Virus record (IMG/VR): IMGVR_UViG_3300028779_000026
Span: 1-27,753 of that record
From: a virus
DNA length: 27,753 nucleotides
Reading direction: 5' to 3' (one strand)
In this document: positions 6,002-23,794 of the stretch, in pieces
Numbering within the stretch: position 1 is the stretch's first letter
Layout: every line of letters begins with the position of its first letter
Notes under the pieces: model-generated
Database searches by the model: none
What the model was told of the DNA's origin: nothing
What the model saw: the letters and a program-made list of their open reading frames with translations, nothing else
Translations under genes and position numbers: made by a program

Positions 6002-6441
6002 CAGAAATCCCCGTTGTCGTTTCGGTATTCTCTGAATTTTTCTTGCGTGCTTTCCAATCGGCACGTTAAGTGCTGTATAGTTTTAGCTTGTTCCGCGAGT
6101 GCCGATTCGAGTATGTCGTCCTTCGCCGCATCGTATATCGCTTTTCGAATCATTTGCAGTTTATCAAACGAGTAATCCGATACAATGGCAGAGTACTTGA
6201 GATACGCCATGTTGCCGGAGAGTAAACCATGCATGAGTTTATCCACTTCGCGCCGAATCCATCTCGTGAAATTATAGTTAAGGTCACATTCGACGGTATT
6301 CGAAAAATTTACCATCGTTTCGTTTATGAATTCATCAAGCACTGAGCGCAATTTCTTTTCGATCGTGTCGCGAGCCGAAACGAGCGACTCCTGTATGTGT
6401 TTAACTTCACGTGTCGTTTCTTCTGATAGCTCAATAGCCAT
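6001..6441 (-). CDS. Hypothetical helical protein
   Basis: 146 aa, almost entirely predicted alpha helix. Residues ~1-45 (ELSEETTREVKHIQESLVSA and onward) and ~105-140 (EQAKTIQHLTCRLESTQEKF) look like coiled coils, with a middle W-I-R-R-E-V-D-K-L segment. No transmembrane segment and no catalytic motif. The first eleven bases overlap the end of a small membrane-protein gene. Function unknown. Confidence 0.7.
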   Translation of the reverse strand: MAIELSEETTREVKHIQESLVSARDTIEKKLRSVLDEFINETMVNFSNTVECDLNYNFTRWIRREVDKLMHGLLSGNMAYLKYSAIVSDYSFDKLQMIRKAIYDAAKDDILESALAEQAKTIQHLTCRLESTQEKFREYRNDNGDF

Positions 6442-6568
6442 GGAATATCCCTCTCAGGTAAGCACGCATAATAAAAAGCAAGAACACTATTACGCTTACA
6501 GTGCAGGTGACAATCAGGGTGGCACCGCACCATCCGATGATTGATACAAACAAATCCATCGTCATCAT
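6431..6568 (-). CDS. Small single-span membrane protein
   Basis: About 45 aa (MMTMDLFVSIIGWCG...), with a hydrophobic stretch of roughly 25 residues (SIIGWCGATLIVTCTVSVIV and onward) followed by R-A-Y-L-R-G, consistent with N-out/C-in insertion by the positive-inside rule. It starts with an ATGA overlap on the gene before and overlaps the next start by 11 bp, so it fills what would otherwise be an odd gap. Any of three closely spaced in-frame ATGs could be used. It could be a holin-like or inhibitor peptide, but nothing more specific can be supported. Confidence 0.65.
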   Translation of the reverse strand: MMTMDLFVSIIGWCGATLIVTCTVSVIVFLLFIMRAYLRGIFHGY

Positions 6569-6780
6569 ATGCATGCCGCCGTAAAAATATAATGCTCGTG
6601 ATCAACAAGCGCACTGTATAAAACCGGCGCGCACGCCGGATCGGCATCGATTACCCAGTTGCCGGACGTATCGGATGGATGATTCGCACGCACCCATTCT
6701 TTCGCTTCCTCGATGGTTCCGACGGAGCACACTATGCACCGAGATTTTGATTGTTTTATCACTGTATGTCGATTACCCAT
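6565..6780 (-). CDS. Hypothetical small protein
   Basis: 71 aa from MGNRHTVIKQ; an AGAGG lies upstream of this ATG. C-I-V-C near residue 14-17 is the only cysteine pair. The segment G-T-I-E-E-A-K-E-W-V-R-A-N-H-P is a helix of the kind seen in many small phage proteins with an 'EEA..W....' core, followed by a hydrophobic C-terminal strand. Upstream in-frame codons overlap the preceding 28-codon gene. Function unknown. Confidence 0.65.
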   Translation of the reverse strand: MGNRHTVIKQSKSRCIVCSVGTIEEAKEWVRANHPSDTSGNWVIDADPACAPVLYSALVDHEHYIFTAACI

Positions 6781-6859
6781 AGACGACCTCTTTAAGTGAA
6801 ACATATAAACCGTAATAGGTGAGCAATAGTGTGATGACTAATATTGTTTTAACTAACAT
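6773..6859 (-). CDS. 28-residue membrane peptide
   Basis: MLVKTILVITLLLTYYGLYV then a short charged end. One hydrophobic helix of ~18 residues. It has one of the best ribosome sites in the window (GTGGAGG, six bases before the ATG) and its end overlaps the next start by eight bases, so it is probably real despite its size. The strong ribosome site may also serve coupled translation of the next gene. Confidence 0.6.
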   Translation of the reverse strand: MLVKTILVITLLLTYYGLYVSLKEVVYG

Positions 6860-6870
6860 GCGTACCTCCA

Positions 6871-7074
6871 CTAATGGGTTCTCTCGACAATATAGTTTTC
6901 GTATGTCGGCCGATAGATGTCATTTACTTCATCGAACAAAGAATGACAGATGTAAGTTTCTTTTTCTTTGAAATGACCATACGCAAATGCTTCACGTTTC
7001 GTTGCAAATTTACGGGTTGATTCTATATGCCAGCCACGTTTCACTATCACAGCGTATTGTTTATTTTGCGCCAT
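6871..7074 (-). CDS. Hypothetical small protein
   Basis: 67 aa from MAQNKQYAVIVKRG, with GAGGAAA eight bases before the ATG. N-terminal strand, then a basic R-K-F-A-T-K-R-E-A-F-A-Y-G-H-F segment typical of small beta-alpha phage proteins, ending acidic and aromatic. No cysteine motif. A start eight codons earlier is possible but lacks a ribosome site. Unknown function. Confidence 0.65.
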   Translation of the reverse strand: MAQNKQYAVIVKRGWHIESTRKFATKREAFAYGHFKEKETYICHSLFDEVNDIYRPTYENYIVERTH

Positions 7075-7088
7075 TTTGATTTCCTCTT

Positions 7089-7286
7089 TTATTCGCAAAG
7101 CGATTTAAAAAACACCGGCTTTGTTCTTTTTTCAAATTTCACGGTATTATATTTTATGTAATCTTCTAGATTTATAAACTCATAACCAGAATCGGCGTAA
7201 CCTTCACATTGCACAAAGTCATGTTGCAGTTGTTTTAACTTCTCTACGGTGATGTTGTACTTTTTTGCTAATTCGCTGTAAGTCAT
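7089..7286 (-). CDS. Small protein with possible HTH
   Basis: 65 aa. The first ~25 residues, M-T-Y-S-E-L-A-K-K-Y-N-I-T-V-E-K-L-K-Q-L, match the opening of a helix-turn-helix (L-A-K-K-Y-x-I-x-x-x-x-L), but the rest is short and acidic/aromatic. A GGGGGA ribosome site precedes the ATG. It is the first gene after the duplicated 59-bp promoter element, so it should be among the earliest transcribed. Confidence 0.65.
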   Translation of the reverse strand: MTYSELAKKYNITVEKLKQLQHDFVQCEGYADSGYEFINLEDYIKYNTVKFEKRTKPVFFKSLCE

Positions 7287-7306
7287 GTTTTATCCCCCAT
7301 TGCGGG

Positions 7307-7365
7307 CAGCACATTGCCGACCTGATAGAGCGATCTTACTCCTTAGTGACGGGTACGTCAATAGC
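7307..7365. repeat. 59-bp promoter repeat, copy 1
   Basis: Identical base for base to 16696-16754. It contains a complete leftward promoter, the palindromic operator and about 26 bases of the transcribed leader. Similarity between the copies continues more weakly through the ribosome site (GGGGGATAAAAC versus GGGAGATAGAACG) to the start codon. Confidence 0.95.
7333..7361 (-). promoter_or_regulatory. Leftward promoter, copy 1
   Basis: TTGACG (7361-7356), 17-bp spacer, TAAGAT (7338-7333) on the minus strand. A TGACG-GGTA-CGTCA palindrome at 7347-7360 overlaps the -35 box. It reads into the genes from 7286 leftward. Confidence 0.8.
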
Positions 7366-7374
7366 TATTTGTGT

Positions 7375-7575
7375 TTATGAAAGACGGTCGAGGGTTGTGG
7401 ATAATCCGGCCGACCTACCCAGTTCCTCAACACGGCGAATAACTGACTCTAGCACCACGAGTGATATTGTTTTAGTAGAGTCATCGGGAATACGCTCATC
7501 CGCGAGTATTTCGTGACATGCGCGTTTTAGATCGTCGATCACATCAGTTAGTGCTTGGTAGTAGTCGGGACTCAT
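7375..7575 (-). CDS. Hypothetical helical protein
   Basis: 66 aa, three predicted helices (Y-Q-A-L-T-D-V-I-D-D-L-K-R-A, S-L-V-V-L-E-S-V-I-R-R-V-E-E-L). Overlaps the nuclease gene before it by ATGA. It is the last gene before the 7307-7365 promoter element. No family recognised. Confidence 0.65.
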   Translation of the reverse strand: MSPDYYQALTDVIDDLKRACHEILADERIPDDSTKTISLVVLESVIRRVEELGRSAGLSTTLDRLS

Positions 7576-8693
7576 GAAACACCTCCAAATATTTTACGTG
7601 CTTTCGATCCATTATCTGCTACGAGCTTCAATGCGCCGTGCTGTGTTTCGCTTAGCGATTCAACGAGCATTTTGTTCATACCGGCCGAGATCGCTTGCTT
7701 CGGTGTAATTGGTTTCGCTGGCTGACTCAGATCGAACCCCATCAATACACCCATGGCGACCACCTCACCGTCTGGTTTAATCCAACGTTGACGCCCTGTG
7801 GTGGGCTCAGCCGTATACCACGAAACAACCTCACCCCGTGCGATCATCGCAAGTGCTTGTTCGCGTAGTCCGGTGATCCGTGCATCAAGGAGCATAGCCG
7901 CATGTTCGAGCACACGGAGCTCTGACCCTGTGGCTAACGCATTGAGATCGTGAACGATAGCGCACTGACTCAGATCGACTGCCGATAATGCCGATCGTTG
8001 TAATGCTTCGCACGCATGGCGGGCGGTGCAATACGTACACTCAGGACTCGGACGACAGATTGGCGCAGCATCGAACGTTCGAGCTTCCGCAACATGCAAG
8101 ATATTAAAAAACGGCCGAAGATCACTCGCGCGCACTGACCAGCGGCGAACAGCGCCATCGCGATGGTAAGAACGGGGCTGTACGATGTAAAAATTGACTG
8201 TAGTTCTCTGATCATAAAGTCCATCTATCCCCAGCTGATCAAGTATCCCGCTCGCGTACTCGATTAACTGCCAATTCTCGAATACTTCAACGAACCCGTG
8301 TCCAAACTTGTAGTCCCAAATGTGTAGCGTACTGCTTGACATGTCGAACCACCATGCATCGGGTGTCCCCCAACAGTCGCGATGGATTGAAGCGATCGTA
8401 ACCCGTTCTTCAATGTGCAGTGCGAGGAGCTCCGACCCCATTACCTCGTGAATCGCTTGCACATACATCTCTCCGCCCTGCAGCATTTCCGTGGTGATTT
8501 GCTCACCGTTAGGCGCGATCGGCGGTATGTTGATTCGCGTACGTAACAGTTCCGACGCGACCCAGTGCGCCGCCTCACCCTCCCGAGCATGCGGCGAACC
8601 CTGATCCGGATACATCGATTCTAATTTACGCGACCCCGGACACGCTACGCGACGCGCGGCGCTTGACGGGGGAAGTATGGAATGTTCACTCAT
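7572..8693 (-). CDS. DUF2800-type PD-(D/E)XK nuclease
   Basis: 373 aa from MSEHSILPPSSAARRVACPG. The opening (S-S-A-x-R-x-x-x-C-P-G-S) and E-G-E-A-A-H-W-V-A at about 38-46 are the signature of the DUF2800 branch of Cas4/RecB-like nucleases. The catalytic core follows: E-E-R-V near 92, G-T-P-D-A-W-W (aspartate) near 107-113, and I-W-D-Y-K-F-G (D-x-K) near 124-130. A later C-T-Y-C...C group could bind metal or a Fe-S cluster. In phages these occur beside helicase and polymerase genes and are taken to process DNA ends in recombination-replication. The ATG overlaps the previous gene by eight bases. Confidence 0.88.
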   Translation of the reverse strand: MSEHSILPPSSAARRVACPGSRKLESMYPDQGSPHAREGEAAHWVASELLRTRINIPPIAPNGEQITTEMLQGGEMYVQAIHEVMGSELLALHIEERVTIASIHRDCWGTPDAWWFDMSSSTLHIWDYKFGHGFVEVFENWQLIEYASGILDQLGIDGLYDQRTTVNFYIVQPRSYHRDGAVRRWSVRASDLRPFFNILHVAEARTFDAAPICRPSPECTYCTARHACEALQRSALSAVDLSQCAIVHDLNALATGSELRVLEHAAMLLDARITGLREQALAMIARGEVVSWYTAEPTTGRQRWIKPDGEVVAMGVLMGFDLSQPAKPITPKQAISAGMNKMLVESLSETQHGALKLVADNGSKARKIFGGVS

Positions 8694-11916: not shown

Positions 11917-12113
11917 CAGCACACATTAAACAGGATACAGATACAACGTGGTGCGGTGCGTCCCTCGACCCGGGGTTCCACTTCGCGAATGTTGAAGCCG
12001 CTGTGTATAACGGAGCACACGATAAAAATCCTAGAGCATGCGCGTTATGCACGCGTGAGCTAATCACACACTTGATTAACGGGCGCGAACTCGCCCCGGA
12101 GCACATAGAATAA
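11913..12113 (+). CDS. Small protein with W-C-G and CxxC motif
   Basis: 66 aa, starting with an ATGA overlap on the nuclease gene. T-W-C-G near residue 12-15 and C-A-L-C-T-R-E-L at ~43-50 could form a small zinc site. Similar 'W-C-G...C-x-x-C' proteins are found in phage early regions without known function. Confidence 0.65.
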   Translation: MTAHIKQDTDTTWCGASLDPGFHFANVEAAVYNGAHDKNPRACALCTRELITHLINGRELAPEHIE

Positions 12114-12421
12114 TGAAAGAAAGAGAGCGTAAAGACCCGCAAGAACGAAAAGAACAAATACTACAAGCGGGTATTAAACTGGCGATCCGACACGGGTATC
12201 ACGCAGTCACACGCGAAGACGTTGCACGCGAGGTGTCGGTGTCCGTCGGACTTGTATCAAAGTATTTTTTTACCATGGCGCAGTTTAAGCGCGTCATTCT
12301 AAGTGCGGCAATCGACAGAGGTATTGTAGAAATCATTGCACAAGGTATTAGCTTGCACGACCCATTAACCAGTAAACTAACGCCTGCACTTCGTAACAAA
12401 ATAAAAGCGCTTTTCGACTAG
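12113..12421 (+). CDS. TetR-type HTH protein
   Basis: 102 aa. Residues ~12-60 match the TetR N-terminal DNA-binding domain: I-L-Q-A-G-I-K-L-A-I-R-H-G-Y-H-A-V-T-R-E-D-V-A and V-S-V-G-L-V-S-K-Y-F (recognition helix ending in the usual K-Y-F). The ligand-binding domain of full TetR proteins (~200 aa) is absent; short phage TetR-like proteins of this kind exist. Its start shares a base with the previous stop. It could be the regulator of the palindromic operators, as TetR proteins bind inverted repeats with short spacers, but that is inference. Confidence 0.82.
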   Translation: MKERERKDPQERKEQILQAGIKLAIRHGYHAVTREDVAREVSVSVGLVSKYFFTMAQFKRVILSAAIDRGIVEIIAQGISLHDPLTSKLTPALRNKIKALFD

Positions 12422-12451
12422 CACGTAAGTATATTCATCAAGGGATAACAA

Positions 12452-14776
12452 ATGGAATTCATGCCGGCGGCCTTTCACGCTTTAAATTTGTATAAACAGT
12501 TTGTCGTATACCACATCAGACCTAGCACATCGCGACCCGGTAAGTCTGATAAAATCCCAGTAAACCTCAATACAGGGCTACCAGCCAACGCACACGACCC
12601 CGCCATATGGTTAAGCGGCGACGAGGCAATGGCCGCAGCCAACCGCATGGGTGCGCGTCATGGTGTAGGGTTCGTTTTTACAGATAACGATCCGTTTTGG
12701 TTTCTTGATATCGATTCTTGTGTGGTTAACGGCAAGTGGTCACCGCTAGCAGTCGAACTCCTGACGCGCTTAGTGGGGTGCGCAGTCGAGGTTTCGCAAT
12801 CGGGACAAGGATTACATATTATCGGATCGGGGATATTACCTGAGCATTGTTGCAAGCCTGCCGAGTTAAATATAGAACTCTATAACTCTGGTCGTTTCGT
12901 AGCTTTAACCGGCAACAATGCTGTGGGTAACGCGGCGTTTACGTCTGATGCGATCTGGGAGATAGCAAACCAATATTTTCCGCCCCGTTCGAATAGTAAC
13001 GGCAATGGCGATATATTACAACGTTTCGCAACACTTGTTACGCGTGGCGTCGATTCACGATGGGTTGGCTCTGTGGATGACTCGGATCTGATCCGTCGTG
13101 CTTGTTTGCCACATCGTAATACATTTAGTAGCAAAGCGACGTTTCGTGATTTATGGCAGCGTAACGTGCACATACTAGCCGGAGCTTACCCGGCACCGGA
13201 TAAACTGGACGGATACGATGACTCGAAAGCTGATGCGGCGCTTGCCCAGCATCTAGCGTTTTGGACGGGATGTGATGCGGAGCGCATGCGTACGCTCATG
13301 CTCGCATCAGGGCTCTATCGTGACAAATACGATCGTGGCGATTATCTGCCGCGAACGATTGTTAACGCGATAGAGATCAACACGACCGTCTGTATTGATC
13401 CCCCGCCAGTTGCGCCCGTCATGGTCGCGAGCATTGACACATCGTCTGCATTTCTCAACGCAGAGCAACAAGCCGCATATTTCGCCGGTTGTGTGTATGT
13501 GATCGAGCAAGATAAAATGCTTGTGCCGCGCGGACGATTGCTAAAACCAACAGTTTTTAAATCGGCGTATGGCGGTAAAATATTTACGATTGATGCTGCA
13601 AACTCACGTACAACTAAAAACGCGTTCGATGCTTTTATCGATTCTCAACTTGTGGTACATCCGCAAGTCGACGACACCTGTTTTCGTCCTGATTTACCGA
13701 CAGGTGCGATTATTAATCAGAACGGGTTTACTTACGTAAATACGTACTGGCCGATGGAAATACCCTGTGTTGAGGGTGACGTAACACTTTTTCTGGAACA
13801 CCTCATTAAGCTGTGTCCAGTGAAACGAGACGCAGATATCTTGCTGTCCTACATGGCAGCCGTCGTACAATACCAAGGCGTGAAATTCCAGTGGTGTCCA
13901 TTTATTCAAGGCGTTGAGGGAAACGGTAAAACACTATTAACGAAGTGCGTGCAATACGCTGTCGGATCAGCCTACACACATTTTCCCAAAGCTGCAGAAC
14001 TTGCCAGCCGGTTTAACGATTTTATGTACGAGCGCGTTTTTATTGCAGTAGAAGATATTTACGTAGCCGATGGGCTAAACGAAATATACGAAGCATTGAA
14101 GCCGATGATTACCGGAGAATGGCAAGAGATCGAACCAAAAGGCGGTAAAAAAGTTACACGGCAAGTATGTGCGAATTTCATCATTAATAGTAATCACAAA
14201 GACGGCCTTCGTAAGACGAGAAATAACCGAACCTTCGCACCTTTTTACACTGCACAGCAATCACTTGAAGACCTCAAGCGCGATGGGATGTCAGGTGGCT
14301 ATTTCGAACGATTGTATGGGTGGTTGAATGATGGTGGATTCGCTAACGTTAATCATTTTCTCCGGAACTATCACATACTCGATGAATATAACCCGGCTGG
14401 CTCTTGCAGACGAGTACCAACAACTTCGTGTACTGAGAGCGCAATCACTCAATCCGCAGGTCGTATCGAACAAGAAGTCATCGAGGCAATTGCATCTGGT
14501 CGTCCGGGATTCCGCAACGGCTGGGTGTCCACCACAGCATTAAATAATTTACTTGACGAGATACGCGCAACCGCTCGGATTGCACGCAACAAACGTGGTG
14601 AGCTACTTCGCAGTTTAGGGTACGAACTCCACAGAGGATTGCTTGAAGGCCGTACGACGTCTAACGTCATACCCGACGGTAATCGCCCGTGCCTGTACGT
14701 GCGATCAGATCATCTTACTCTACTATGGGATGATGGGCAGAGGATAACGAAGCAGTACGAGAAGGATCAAGTGTGA
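12452..14776 (+). CDS. Primase-polymerase / SF3 helicase fusion
   Basis: 774 aa; AAGGGA precedes the ATG. N-terminal prim-pol fold: G-V-G-F-V-F (71-76), F-L-D-I-D (84-88, metal-binding aspartates), S-G-Q-G-L-H-I (117-123, catalytic His) and R-F-V-A-L-T-G (148-154). A helical bundle follows around 255-310 (D-A-A-L-A-Q-H-L-A-F-W-T-G and Y-R-D-K-Y-D-R-G), as in NrS-1-type primase-polymerases. The C-terminal SF3 helicase has Walker A G-V-E-G-N-G-K-T (487-494), Walker B V-F-I-A-V-E-D (529-535), sensor N-F-I-I-N-S-N (575-581) and basic R-K-T-R-N-N-R. It would prime and unwind DNA for the family A polymerase. The gene stops in the first unit of a tandem repeat. Confidence 0.93.
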   Translation: MEFMPAAFHALNLYKQFVVYHIRPSTSRPGKSDKIPVNLNTGLPANAHDPAIWLSGDEAMAAANRMGARHGVGFVFTDNDPFWFLDIDSCVVNGKWSPLAVELLTRLVGCAVEVSQSGQGLHIIGSGILPEHCCKPAELNIELYNSGRFVALTGNNAVGNAAFTSDAIWEIANQYFPPRSNSNGNGDILQRFATLVTRGVDSRWVGSVDDSDLIRRACLPHRNTFSSKATFRDLWQRNVHILAGAYPAPDKLDGYDDSKADAALAQHLAFWTGCDAERMRTLMLASGLYRDKYDRGDYLPRTIVNAIEINTTVCIDPPPVAPVMVASIDTSSAFLNAEQQAAYFAGCVYVIEQDKMLVPRGRLLKPTVFKSAYGGKIFTIDAANSRTTKNAFDAFIDSQLVVHPQVDDTCFRPDLPTGAIINQNGFTYVNTYWPMEIPCVEGDVTLFLEHLIKLCPVKRDADILLSYMAAVVQYQGVKFQWCPFIQGVEGNGKTLLTKCVQYAVGSAYTHFPKAAELASRFNDFMYERVFIAVEDIYVADGLNEIYEALKPMITGEWQEIEPKGGKKVTRQVCANFIINSNHKDGLRKTRNNRTFAPFYTAQQSLEDLKRDGMSGGYFERLYGWLNDGGFANVNHFLRNYHILDEYNPAGSCRRVPTTSCTESAITQSAGRIEQEVIEAIASGRPGFRNGWVSTTALNNLLDEIRATARIARNKRGELLRSLGYELHRGLLEGRTTSNVIPDGNRPCLYVRSDHLTLLWDDGQRITKQYEKDQV

Positions 14777-14892
14777 CGGGGCTTACGGATAGTGTGACGG
14801 GGCTTACGGATAGTGTGACGGGGCTTACGGATAGTGTGACGGGGCTTACGGATAGTGTGACGGGGCTTACGGATAGTGTGACGGGGCTTACG
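14771..14892. repeat. 21-bp tandem repeat between convergent genes
   Basis: Five identical 21-bp units starting at 14771, 14792, 14813, 14834 and 14855, followed by a 17-bp partial copy at 14876 that runs into the terminator hairpin. The first unit contains the stop codon of the primase-helicase. Each copy carries ACGGGGC, so the single GCCCCGT at 14892 can pair with any of six partners. There are no spacers, so it is not a CRISPR array. Confidence 0.95.
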
Positions 14893-16674: not shown

Positions 16675-16695
16675 CGTTCTATCTCCCGTTACGGT

Positions 16696-16754
16696 CAGCA
16701 CATTGCCGACCTGATAGAGCGATCTTACTCCTTAGTGACGGGTACGTCAATAGC
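16696..16754. repeat. 59-bp promoter repeat, copy 2
   Basis: Perfect duplicate of 7307-7365. It lies directly downstream of the terminator at 16761-16788, so it restarts transcription of the leftward genes after the previous transcript ends. Confidence 0.95.
16722..16750 (-). promoter_or_regulatory. Leftward promoter, copy 2
   Basis: TTGACG (16750-16745), 17-bp spacer, TAAGAT (16727-16722) on the minus strand, with the TGACG-GGTA-CGTCA palindrome at 16736-16749. It drives the tiny genes from 16674 leftward. Confidence 0.8.
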
Positions 16755-16760
16755 GAAACG

Positions 16761-16788
16761 AAAAAAACCCCCGGGATAAATCGGGGGT
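16761..16788 (-). terminator. Rho-independent terminator
   Basis: On the minus strand a 7-bp stem ACCCCCG/CGGGGGT with an 8-base loop is followed by a run of seven T. It ends the transcript carrying the gene at 16795-17016, seven bases after that gene's stop. Confidence 0.92.
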
Positions 16789-17028: not shown

Positions 17029-17256
17029 TTATGATTCTAACTTATTTATTAAATGATTCAGATAAAATCGTGCTTTTCGTAAATCTTCCAGACCATTTTT
17101 ATGCGAATGCCGCCATAGGTATTTAATAATATTACCCTCTAAAAACGGAAGCGACCCGACGACATCAATACATTCTATCGGCGTGTTACACGAAACGCAT
17201 TTGGCGTCGCTGCTCGTATAGTGGGCGGGGTGATCGACTGCATCGTGCTTAACCAT
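17029..17256 (-). CDS. DUF3310 family protein
   Basis: 75 aa. V-D-H-P-A-H-Y-T at residues 7-14, I-E-C-I-D-V-V in the middle, F-L-E-G-N-I-I-K-Y-L-W-R-H and L-E-D-L-R-K-A-R-F-Y-L-N-H-L-I: the full DUF3310 pattern of small phage proteins, sometimes listed as nucleotide-kinase-like but without demonstrated activity. A C-V-S-C pair is inserted after the HY motif. TAAGGAG ribosome site immediately upstream; it is the first gene after the structured region at 17281-17738. Confidence 0.92.
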   Translation of the reverse strand: MVKHDAVDHPAHYTSSDAKCVSCNTPIECIDVVGSLPFLEGNIIKYLWRHSHKNGLEDLRKARFYLNHLINKLES

Positions 17257-17280
17257 TCATTGCTCCTTAATGCTTAACTG

Positions 17281-17738
17281 TCTCGGCTTCACGTCTCCCG
17301 GCCGAGGCGGGCTGTATCAGTTGACTAGCAAACTGCGACGTATTCGGCCGGGCATACGGTACCCGGCTTGCTGCTTTGGGCGGTCGTTAGCAACCACCCT
17401 TGCGCTCTTTACAGTAGGCACGAATTGAACGTGCTGTCCCCATCAACCGGGATCGAACCGGACACCCGGACATGACTATAGCTGGTCTGCATCGCATGAA
17501 CGTGGCCTTGTCCACATGCGGACTACTGCCCTGTATCACATTACTGTGATCGTAGTCAGGCCAGAGGGGGTGCTATAATCACTCGTGTCACCGTCCACGA
17601 CGCTACTGTGTATTATTCGTAGCGGGTGCTATCACACACCCGCCGTTTCATCAAGGAACTGGGCACAACTCGGCTTTACGCAAGGATACCCACGCGTCGG
17701 CGCCCCCGACAGGTTGCTGTGACCGTAGCGTCACTATA
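17281..17738 (-). ncRNA. Candidate large structured RNA, gene-free hairpin cluster
   Basis: About 460 bp with no credible gene in a genome that otherwise wastes no space. At least eleven short perfect inverted repeats lie side by side: 17282-17306, 17318-17335, 17347-17367, 17378-17399, 17418-17434, 17447-17461, 17493-17520, 17535-17550, 17583-17600, 17622-17643, 17696-17710 and 17719-17734. The minus strand is favoured because two stems (17378-17399 and 17411-17417 with 17523-17529) need G-U wobbles that become A-C mismatches on the plus strand, and because loop 17541-17544 is a GNRA (GTAA) only on the minus strand. Inside is a tRNA-like acceptor plus T-arm. No canonical tRNA, tmRNA or RNase P RNA was recognised. 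Long 5' leader of the DUF3310 gene is the main alternative. Confidence 0.6.
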
Positions 17739-18065
17739 TCAATTCGGCCAGTCCGGATCAACCATTTTACCGTCTCGCAAAGTATGCCGCAGCGCGATTA
17801 TCTTATTCGCATGCTCTGGGGGAATTAGCATCCTGAGGCGCCCGGTTTCCATACTATCCGGATTACCTGATCCCATCGTACGGGTAATCGGCGTATACCC
17901 ATTAGCAACGAGCCATAGGTTTGCCGCACGATCCAGAAGGGATATGTATTCATTCGCACGCGCCACGGGTATATACACGGTGGGCTGTCTACAAACCTTT
18001 TCAAGTTTTTTCTTGTGGTAATCACAATAAACGACCCTTCTGATTTCTGAGTAGCATCCACACAT
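17739..18065 (-). CDS. Hypothetical protein
   Basis: 108 aa, MCGCYSEIRRVVYCDYHKKK start: three N-terminal cysteines and a histidine could hold a zinc ion. The rest, V-Y-I-P-V-A-R-A-N-E-Y-I-S-L-L-D-R-A-A-N-L-W-L-V-A-N-G, is helical. The start shares one base with the preceding stop. It ends where the hairpin cluster begins, so the structured RNA may be its 3' region. No family recognised. Confidence 0.7.
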   Translation of the reverse strand: MCGCYSEIRRVVYCDYHKKKLEKVCRQPTVYIPVARANEYISLLDRAANLWLVANGYTPITRTMGSGNPDSMETGRLRMLIPPEHANKIIALRHTLRDGKMVDPDWPN

Positions 18066-18494: not shown

Positions 18495-18760
18495 AGTTCC
18501 GTCATGGGTAAAATTTGTTTTTTATCATTAAGTTAGACCTATTTCTGCCGGATGACGGATGAAAACCCTTACCCACACCGATTTAGCAGGATTGTAGTAT
18601 AGGGCATGGATATAACATACCATATTATCATCCTACAGTTTCGCTGGAGATTGTTATAGTTCCGTCATTCCGTCATAAATAGTAATAATAGTAATAAAAA
18701 CAATAGTTTACCCAATGACGGAACTCTATGACGGAACTATGACCGAGTATTCATCCGTCA
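18495..18760. repeat. Array of TCCGTCAT / ATGACGGA sites (origin- or operator-like)
   Basis: The 423 bases between genes (18425-18847) hold at least six copies of an 8-11-mer: AGTTCCGTCAT at 18495; ATGACGGA at 18552; two head-to-tail TCCGTCAT at 18661 and 18669; ATGACGGAACT at 18715 and 18728, with a decayed ATGACCGAGT at 18739 and TCATCCGTCA at 18751. The pairs at 18661-18676 and 18715-18738 face each other across a 38-bp A+T-rich stretch (AATAGTAATAATAGTAATAA). Inverted iterons around an AT-rich core are typical of replication origins; repressor clusters look similar. Confidence 0.7.
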
Positions 18761-18811
18761 CCGACCCCATACCACTGTGCACTACCCCCACGAGTGTAAT
18801 ATCTGTACAGT

Positions 18812-18839
18812 TTGATTTCGAAGCAATCGGGCGCATAAT
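18812..18839 (+). promoter_or_regulatory. Candidate late rightward promoter
   Basis: TTGATT (18812-18817), 16-bp spacer, CATAAT (18834-18839), just before the small terminase gene. A start about seven bases after the -10 box would leave little room for a start at 18848, which supports 18875 as the first codon. Confidence 0.55.
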
Positions 18840-18874
18840 GGGCACTTGTGATCAACAGAAGTGAGAAACACCGC

Positions 18875-23466: not shown

Positions 23467-23470
23467 GGCA

Positions 23471-23500
23471 TTGAAAAACGCGGCCGCACTGTAGTATAGT
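23471..23500 (+). promoter_or_regulatory. Rightward promoter before the packaging genes
   Basis: TTGAAA (23471-23476), 18-bp spacer, TATAGT (23495-23500). The 12-mer TGACGGCCTCGT begins at the last base of the -10 box, exactly as at the helicase promoter (9759), which suggests one protein controls both. Confidence 0.75.
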
Positions 23501-23533
23501 GACGGCCTCGTAACCAACACAGGACGACATGTC

Positions 23534-23791
23534 ATGACCGCTCCAATCGATCCGAAAGATAGCCAGATACAACAGATGGGTGCCGCGTTAACTCAGCAAG
23601 GCGCACGTATTCAGGCGTACACACAGGCATTGCAAGAAGCGACCGCGAAAGCCGTCGAATTGCAATCGCAAATCAACATGGGCAATAACCAGTTGCAAGC
23701 GTTGAATGGTCGTTTAGCGCAGATGGAGAAACAGCTAACTGATGCAAATGCGAAGATCGCCGAGTTAACCCCACCACCCGCTAAGTCGTAA
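23534..23791 (+). CDS. Coiled-coil protein
   Basis: 85 aa, MTAPIDPKDSQIQQMGAALT start. From residue ~15 to ~78 an uninterrupted heptad-like helix rich in Gln/Ala/Leu (Q-A-L-Q-E-A-T-A-K-A-V-E-L-Q-S-Q-I, G-R-L-A-Q-M-E-K-Q-L), ending in P-P-P-A-K-S. AGGA lies ~10 bases before the ATG. Directly upstream of the large terminase and with its own promoter. Such short coiled coils occur in phages as spanin-, scaffold- or fibre-assembly helpers; none can be chosen here. Confidence 0.75.
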   Translation: MTAPIDPKDSQIQQMGAALTQQGARIQAYTQALQEATAKAVELQSQINMGNNQLQALNGRLAQMEKQLTDANAKIAELTPPPAKS

Positions 23792-23794
23792 TGC

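Follow-up and report, generated by a model that had tools for sequence, protein, structure and literature searches.

The window analysed here is the whole 27,753-nt stretch of IMG/VR record IMGVR_UViG_3300028779_000026, an uncultured phage contig. Its terminase shares about 58% identity with that of Burkholderia phage Magia and 54-56% with those of Dyella and Rhodanobacter prophages. The phage also encodes a portal, a DNA polymerase A and an NrS-1-like primase-polymerase; directly 3' of the primase-polymerase gene, 21-nt head-to-tail repeats (AGTGTGACGGGGCTTACGGAT) occupy positions 14770-14892. The longest gene-free gap of the window, 482 nt, lies between a 108-aa gene and a DUF3310 gene, on the same (minus) strand as both; the apparently larger gaps at 11917-12451 and 23467-23794 contain small reading frames. 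Protein-coding content of the 482-nt gap was rejected, as its three minus-strand frames gave no Pfam or PHROG match. The folding energy of the gap lies below the shuffled mean (z -3.49) and ranks second among 113 windows. No terminator was found between 17738 and 17257, and the next one downstream is that at 16788-16767. A divergent gene-free region at 18506-18847, in which CCGTCAT/ATGACGG recurs and which also has a large inverted repeat (z -4.4 for the fold of 18641-18760), is a possible replication origin or control region.

17733-17761 (-): promoter-like site TTGATC-17-TATAGT, its -10 box extended (TGATATAGT), which overlaps the 108-aa gene at its 3' end
17720-17733 (-): operator-like dyad TGACGCTACGGTCA, at the leader start, immediately after the promoter-like site
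17257-17738 (-): gene-free region of 482 nt, between the 108-aa gene (stop 17739) and the DUF3310 gene (start 17256)
17649-17659 (-): anti-Shine-Dalgarno strand GTTCCTTGATG, pairing with 17272-17262
17262-17272 (-): Shine-Dalgarno region of the DUF3310 gene, CATTAAGGAGC, predicted to be sequestered by 17659-17649
17029-17256 (-): DUF3310 gene of 75 aa (PF11753, 1.6e-12), downstream of the leader; its matching PHROG families carry the annotation nucleotide kinase
16767-16788 (-): intrinsic terminator ending the DUF3310/73-aa unit

A putative leader with a sequestered start signal

The gap has the appearance of a 5' leader to the DUF3310 gene. The promoter-like site at its upstream end has 9 of 12 matches plus the TG of the extended -10, which is weak evidence alone, since four sites of such quality were found in the scanned region and 4.0 are expected. 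An operator-like site is also present at the start. The dyad TGACGNNNNSGTCA occurs at six sites on the phage (5438, 7347, 9759, 11389, 16736 and 17720), with 10 matches at these sites compared to 0.09 expected, and the five sites other than 17720 overlap the -35 boxes of TTGACG-17 promoters. This distribution suggests that the phage probably has a repressor regulon. A promoter-plus-leader repeat of 79 nt (94% identical) is also found on the minus strand at 7287-7365 and 16676-16754, before two different small genes.

Folding predictions suggest that the start signal of the following gene is concealed by this untranslated leader. The anti-Shine-Dalgarno strand pairs with the Shine-Dalgarno (SD) region in 11 of 11 positions, two of them G-U, and the helix has a probability of 1.0 in every full-length context; a comparable partner arises in only 3 of 4000 shuffled leaders. 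The unpaired probability of the SD is 0.0 in the full leader, and mostly 0.8-0.99 per base once the anti-SD strand is taken away. Stable pairing of the SD with an upstream strand, which defines SD-sequestering leaders, is thus predicted here. The element resembles long-range leaders of this kind in that a ribosome-binding site is hidden in a long-range helix, and it differs from them in having a tRNA-like domain nested in the loop which that helix closes and in matching no known family.

A predicted tRNA-like fold between 17609 and 17411

An earlier note, made from the sequence alone, had described a tRNA-like acceptor and T-arm closing over 119 nt. Its pairings are present: the acceptor GCAGTAG (17529-17523) with CTACTGT (17417-17411) in seven of seven positions, one of them G-U, the T-arm GCACG-TTCAATT-CGTGC at 17434-17418 (5/5), a D-like stem CGCATG/CATGCG at 17520-17493 (6/6) and a second T-loop hairpin at 17461-17447. 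However, a better fold that pairs these segments elsewhere, the outcome the note had itself named as telling against its model, exists for the 119-nt closure: CTACTGT has a better 5' partner, ACAGTAG (17609-17603), 80 nt further upstream, which had been overlooked. The 119-nt closure reaches a probability (P) of 0.7-1.0 when excised or given short flanks, and this drops to at most 0.01 with 50 bases on each side or more upstream sequence.

The unconstrained minimum free energy (MFE) structure of 17609-17411 (199 nt, -71.4 kcal/mol) has tRNA geometry, with the following parts:

17603-17609 (-): 5' acceptor strand ACAGTAG, 7/7 Watson-Crick with 17417-17411
17583-17600 (-): D-arm TCGTG-GACGGTGA-CACGA, GG in the loop, P 0.43-0.66
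17572-17582 (-): 5' strand of an 11-bp helix, GTGATTATAGC, in the anticodon-arm position, P 0.93-0.98
17483-17571 (-): 89 nt within the 11-bp helix, forming two hairpins and including GCAGTAG 17529-17523 and the stem 17520-17493
17472-17482 (-): 3' strand of the 11-bp helix, GCTATAGTCAT, in the MFE fold of 17609-17411
17447-17461 (-): second T-loop hairpin CCGG-TTCGATC-CCGG, in the 37-nt variable region 17471-17435, a minor conformer
17418-17434 (-): T-arm GCACG-TTCAATT-CGTGC, flush with the acceptor, P 0.70-0.99
17411-17417 (-): 3' acceptor strand CTACTGT, followed by AAAG, no CCA

The spacer between acceptor and D-arm is 2 nt (CG), and position 8 is C, not U, which counts against the tRNA-like reading, as do the missing CCA and anticodon arm. 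In this fold the former D-like stem lies within the domain that the 11-bp helix closes, where it forms a hairpin, while the second T-loop hairpin, although its sequence and pairing are as described, is formed with a probability of only about 0.06. The broader proposal of a tRNA-like domain of a larger RNA survives in outline, as the T-arm/acceptor geometry is above chance and the better closure adds a canonical D-arm; its details do not. Unusual local folding stability was rejected, the z-scores of 120-nt windows being ordinary, like those of 17606-17411 (z -0.42) and of the 119 nt (z -0.85), and this too speaks against the tRNA-like reading.

The fold competes with other structures along the leader. 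For transcripts that run from the presumed start to a 3' end anywhere from 17411 to 17301, the probability of the tRNA-like acceptor is 0.5-0.84; it falls to about 0 in those ending from 17291 onward and in the complete leader, also after its 5' part is removed. The combination of tRNA-like fold and anti-SD helix is the MFE structure of the transcript ending at 17300, and in the full leader it lies 4.7 kcal/mol (2.6%) above the optimum. For an RNA of 470 nt a difference of this size does not exceed the error of the energy model; nevertheless, the predicted deficit is a real point against the tRNA-like fold. As the fold is favoured in partial transcripts and outcompeted in the full leader, the domain may act during transcription.

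Specificity of the tRNA-like geometry

The main rival to a tRNA-like domain is coincidence inside a regulatory leader: the leader would be real, with its SD sequestered and under operator control, and the resemblance would come from chance T-loop-like hairpins that nothing reads as a tRNA. We regard this as possible, if rather unlikely. The loss of the acceptor from the full-leader ensemble speaks for it, and so do some of the chance estimates. For a 7-bp acceptor with a T-arm and no more than one G-U, shuffled windows give an expectation of 0.005 per window. When the 482-nt region alone is dinucleotide-shuffled, this pair arises in 4 of 20,000 with any number of G-U pairs and in 0 of 20,000 with at most one, and the two T-loop hairpins together likewise in 0 of 20,000. 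Looser rules that allow more G-U pairs, however, give 0.01-0.06 per window, and many windows have presumably been read, so that on the earlier description alone coincidence over many windows is possible. On 1.0 Mb of related phage loci the acceptor/T-arm descriptor returned four tRNA-type elements and one false match.

The corrected fold permits a stricter comparison. We used a canonical descriptor, written after the fold had been seen, that comprises a 7-bp acceptor, a short fixed spacer, a D-stem of 4-5 bp with a GG loop and a 5-bp T-arm with TTCRA, its length limit being set far above tRNA size. It yielded 12 matches of 70-83 nt in 1.2 Mb of other (control) loci, all of tRNA form; a further five, 70-95 nt long, came from 0.87 Mb of whole records. 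Thus, across some 2 Mb of other phage DNA every match is tRNA-sized and none is a false positive, which argues against coincidence, as does the joint chance of 0 in 1500 whole-window shuffles and 1 in 60,000 when the region is shuffled. If the T-arm is kept constant, the acceptor partner and D-arm arise in 1.2% of shuffles, a figure that favours coincidence. The specificity of the descriptor is good evidence for a tRNA-like domain, though short of conclusive; even with no tight length limit, a simple acceptor/D-arm/T-arm descriptor did separate the element from background. A tRNA-like sequence at L088:4510-4584, flanked by structural genes of a relative, has good acceptor, D- and T-arms and a poor anticodon arm, and ARAGORN is silent on it.

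The only other copy, in IMGVR_UViG_3300028859_000066, is identical over the gap and belongs to the same single phage lineage, so that there is no covariation support for the acceptor, the T-arm or the anti-SD helix, which again favours coincidence. Searches via the flanking genes, the terminase, the primase, DUF3310 neighbours, exact patterns and a 119-nt covariance model returned no diverged homologue. In the viral contigs neither of the two flanking genes upstream has relatives, the 108-aa gene has none in the phage collection, and the terminase relatives are without the leader region. The best match of the 119-nt covariance model elsewhere (G023, 15 bits) was rejected because it lies in a coding frame and is no better than the polA background of the window, and matches to a double-T-loop pattern were mostly tRNAs plus one unrelated conserved RNA. 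Three other viral contigs carry an element of about 120 nt (L142:1700-1825, L147:2439-2575 and L148:580-697, minus strand) with two tRNA-type T-loop hairpins, the second of which shows a compensatory A-T/G-C change, and with the motif GCCTAAGACAGTGCTCCAGTGGGTGTGGAG; it has no Rfam match, and in L147 and L148 a tRNA gene lies shortly downstream. A stand-alone T-arm hairpin lies no more than about 25 nt downstream of tRNA genes in L141, L144 and L146.

Known RNA classes and the proposed working of the leader

The element is not a cloverleaf of the 70-100 nt that tRNA models recognise. The earlier note had proposed a search with tRNA finders; default ARAGORN finds nothing, the tmRNA calls of relaxed ARAGORN have other ends, and there is no Rfam tRNA signal even at E 10. 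The top half of a tRNA (7-bp acceptor, 2-nt spacer, GG D-arm, flush TTCRANN T-arm) is present in 17609-17411, while the anticodon arm (5 bp, 7-nt loop, U33) is replaced by the 11-bp helix enclosing 89 nt. The element thus shares with tRNAs, including class II and tRNA-Sec, the 7+5 bp acceptor/T stack, the 2-nt D-arm spacer and the T-loop consensus, and differs from them in its length of 199 (or 119) nt, its C8 and the lack of an anticodon arm and of CCA. Non-canonical tRNAs covered by a review (PMC7609411), such as tRNA-Sec, retain the anticodon arm, unlike this element. Bacterial Y RNA (YrlA) is likewise a noncoding RNA that mimics tRNA; this identity was rejected, since neither a match to RF02553 nor a TROVE/Ro protein partner was found in the phage records, which are fragments.

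The closest topology is that of tmRNA (ssrA), a larger RNA whose ends form an acceptor, a GG-containing D region and a T-arm, and which has a long helix in place of the anticodon arm. An autonomous tmRNA-like noncoding RNA, processed at both ends and acting in trans, for instance with ribosomes or RNase P/EF-Tu as its target or by decoying host defences that cut tRNAs, would fit the topology of the 199-nt fold and the element's own promoter-like start and operator, and carriage of tmRNAs by phages has precedent (PMC9004378). We consider it improbable. Here the D-stem has 5 bp, neither ARAGORN nor Rfam finds a tmRNA with a tag peptide, no tag frame is recognised, CCA is lacking, and the 3-70 pair is A-U instead of the alanine identity pair G3-U70. 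In addition, the element sits in a leader that has no terminator of its own, and the SD-sequestering helix argues for cis action.

Decayed tRNA genes or fragments, whether from one captured tRNA that gained an insertion or from two fused tRNAs of which both T-arms remain, would account for the two tRNA-type T-loop hairpins, which lie 28 nt from each other; mobile elements often contain tRNA fragments (PMC9897764), and the relatives have ordinary tRNAs. This origin is also quite unlikely, as both arms are still perfectly paired, a canonical anticodon arm is missing and Rfam gives no tRNA signal. A tRNA interrupted by an insertion was rejected: the deletion scan with ARAGORN yields a tRNA-Ser(cga), but its 24 internal-deletion calls are matched in number by 34 of 100 controls with a shuffled middle.

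Our best reading, which we hold tentatively, is a cis-regulatory DUF3310 leader that carries a tRNA-like domain. The computation supports the SD sequestration, the tRNA-like geometry and the operator-like site at the start. This reading draws on statistics and on the folding of one phage lineage, from which we infer the leader transcript, its recognition by a host enzyme and the relief of sequestration by cleavage. The structured leader would span about 17726 to 17257 on the minus strand, 5' of the DUF3310 gene. In the newly made leader the 11-bp GTTCCTTGATG/CATTAAGGAGC helix is predicted to keep the SD hidden, with the tRNA-like domain 17609-17411 nested within the loop closed by that helix. 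A host enzyme or factor might then read the tRNA top half. The simplest candidate would be RNase P, with a cut immediately 5' of 17609, given that its substrate range includes acceptor/T-stem models and phage C4 antisense RNA (PMC11143913). The C4 antisense RNA of P1/P7 and phage M3 RNA, compared by description only, resemble the element in that a phage RNA could offer RNase P an acceptor-like stem. Such a cut would free the anti-SD strand from the mRNA and open DUF3310 translation; the lack of CCA may weaken cleavage. To this specific riboregulator, in which RNase P cuts at the tRNA-like domain, removes the anti-SD strand and switches on downstream translation, we give little weight.

Should the domain prove real, a phage mRNA leader would contain a tRNA mimic whose topology lies between those of tRNA and tmRNA; host tRNA processing would be linked to phage translation control, and tRNA finders would be missing expanded tRNA-like RNAs in phages.

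As a separate observation on the same phage, in another of its records (L167) a head-protein gene at 6103-8010 (+) seems, by eye, to be split by an intein-like segment. Inside this segment, on the opposite strand (7030-7896, minus), lies a 288-aa frame that by eye looks like a homing endonuclease.
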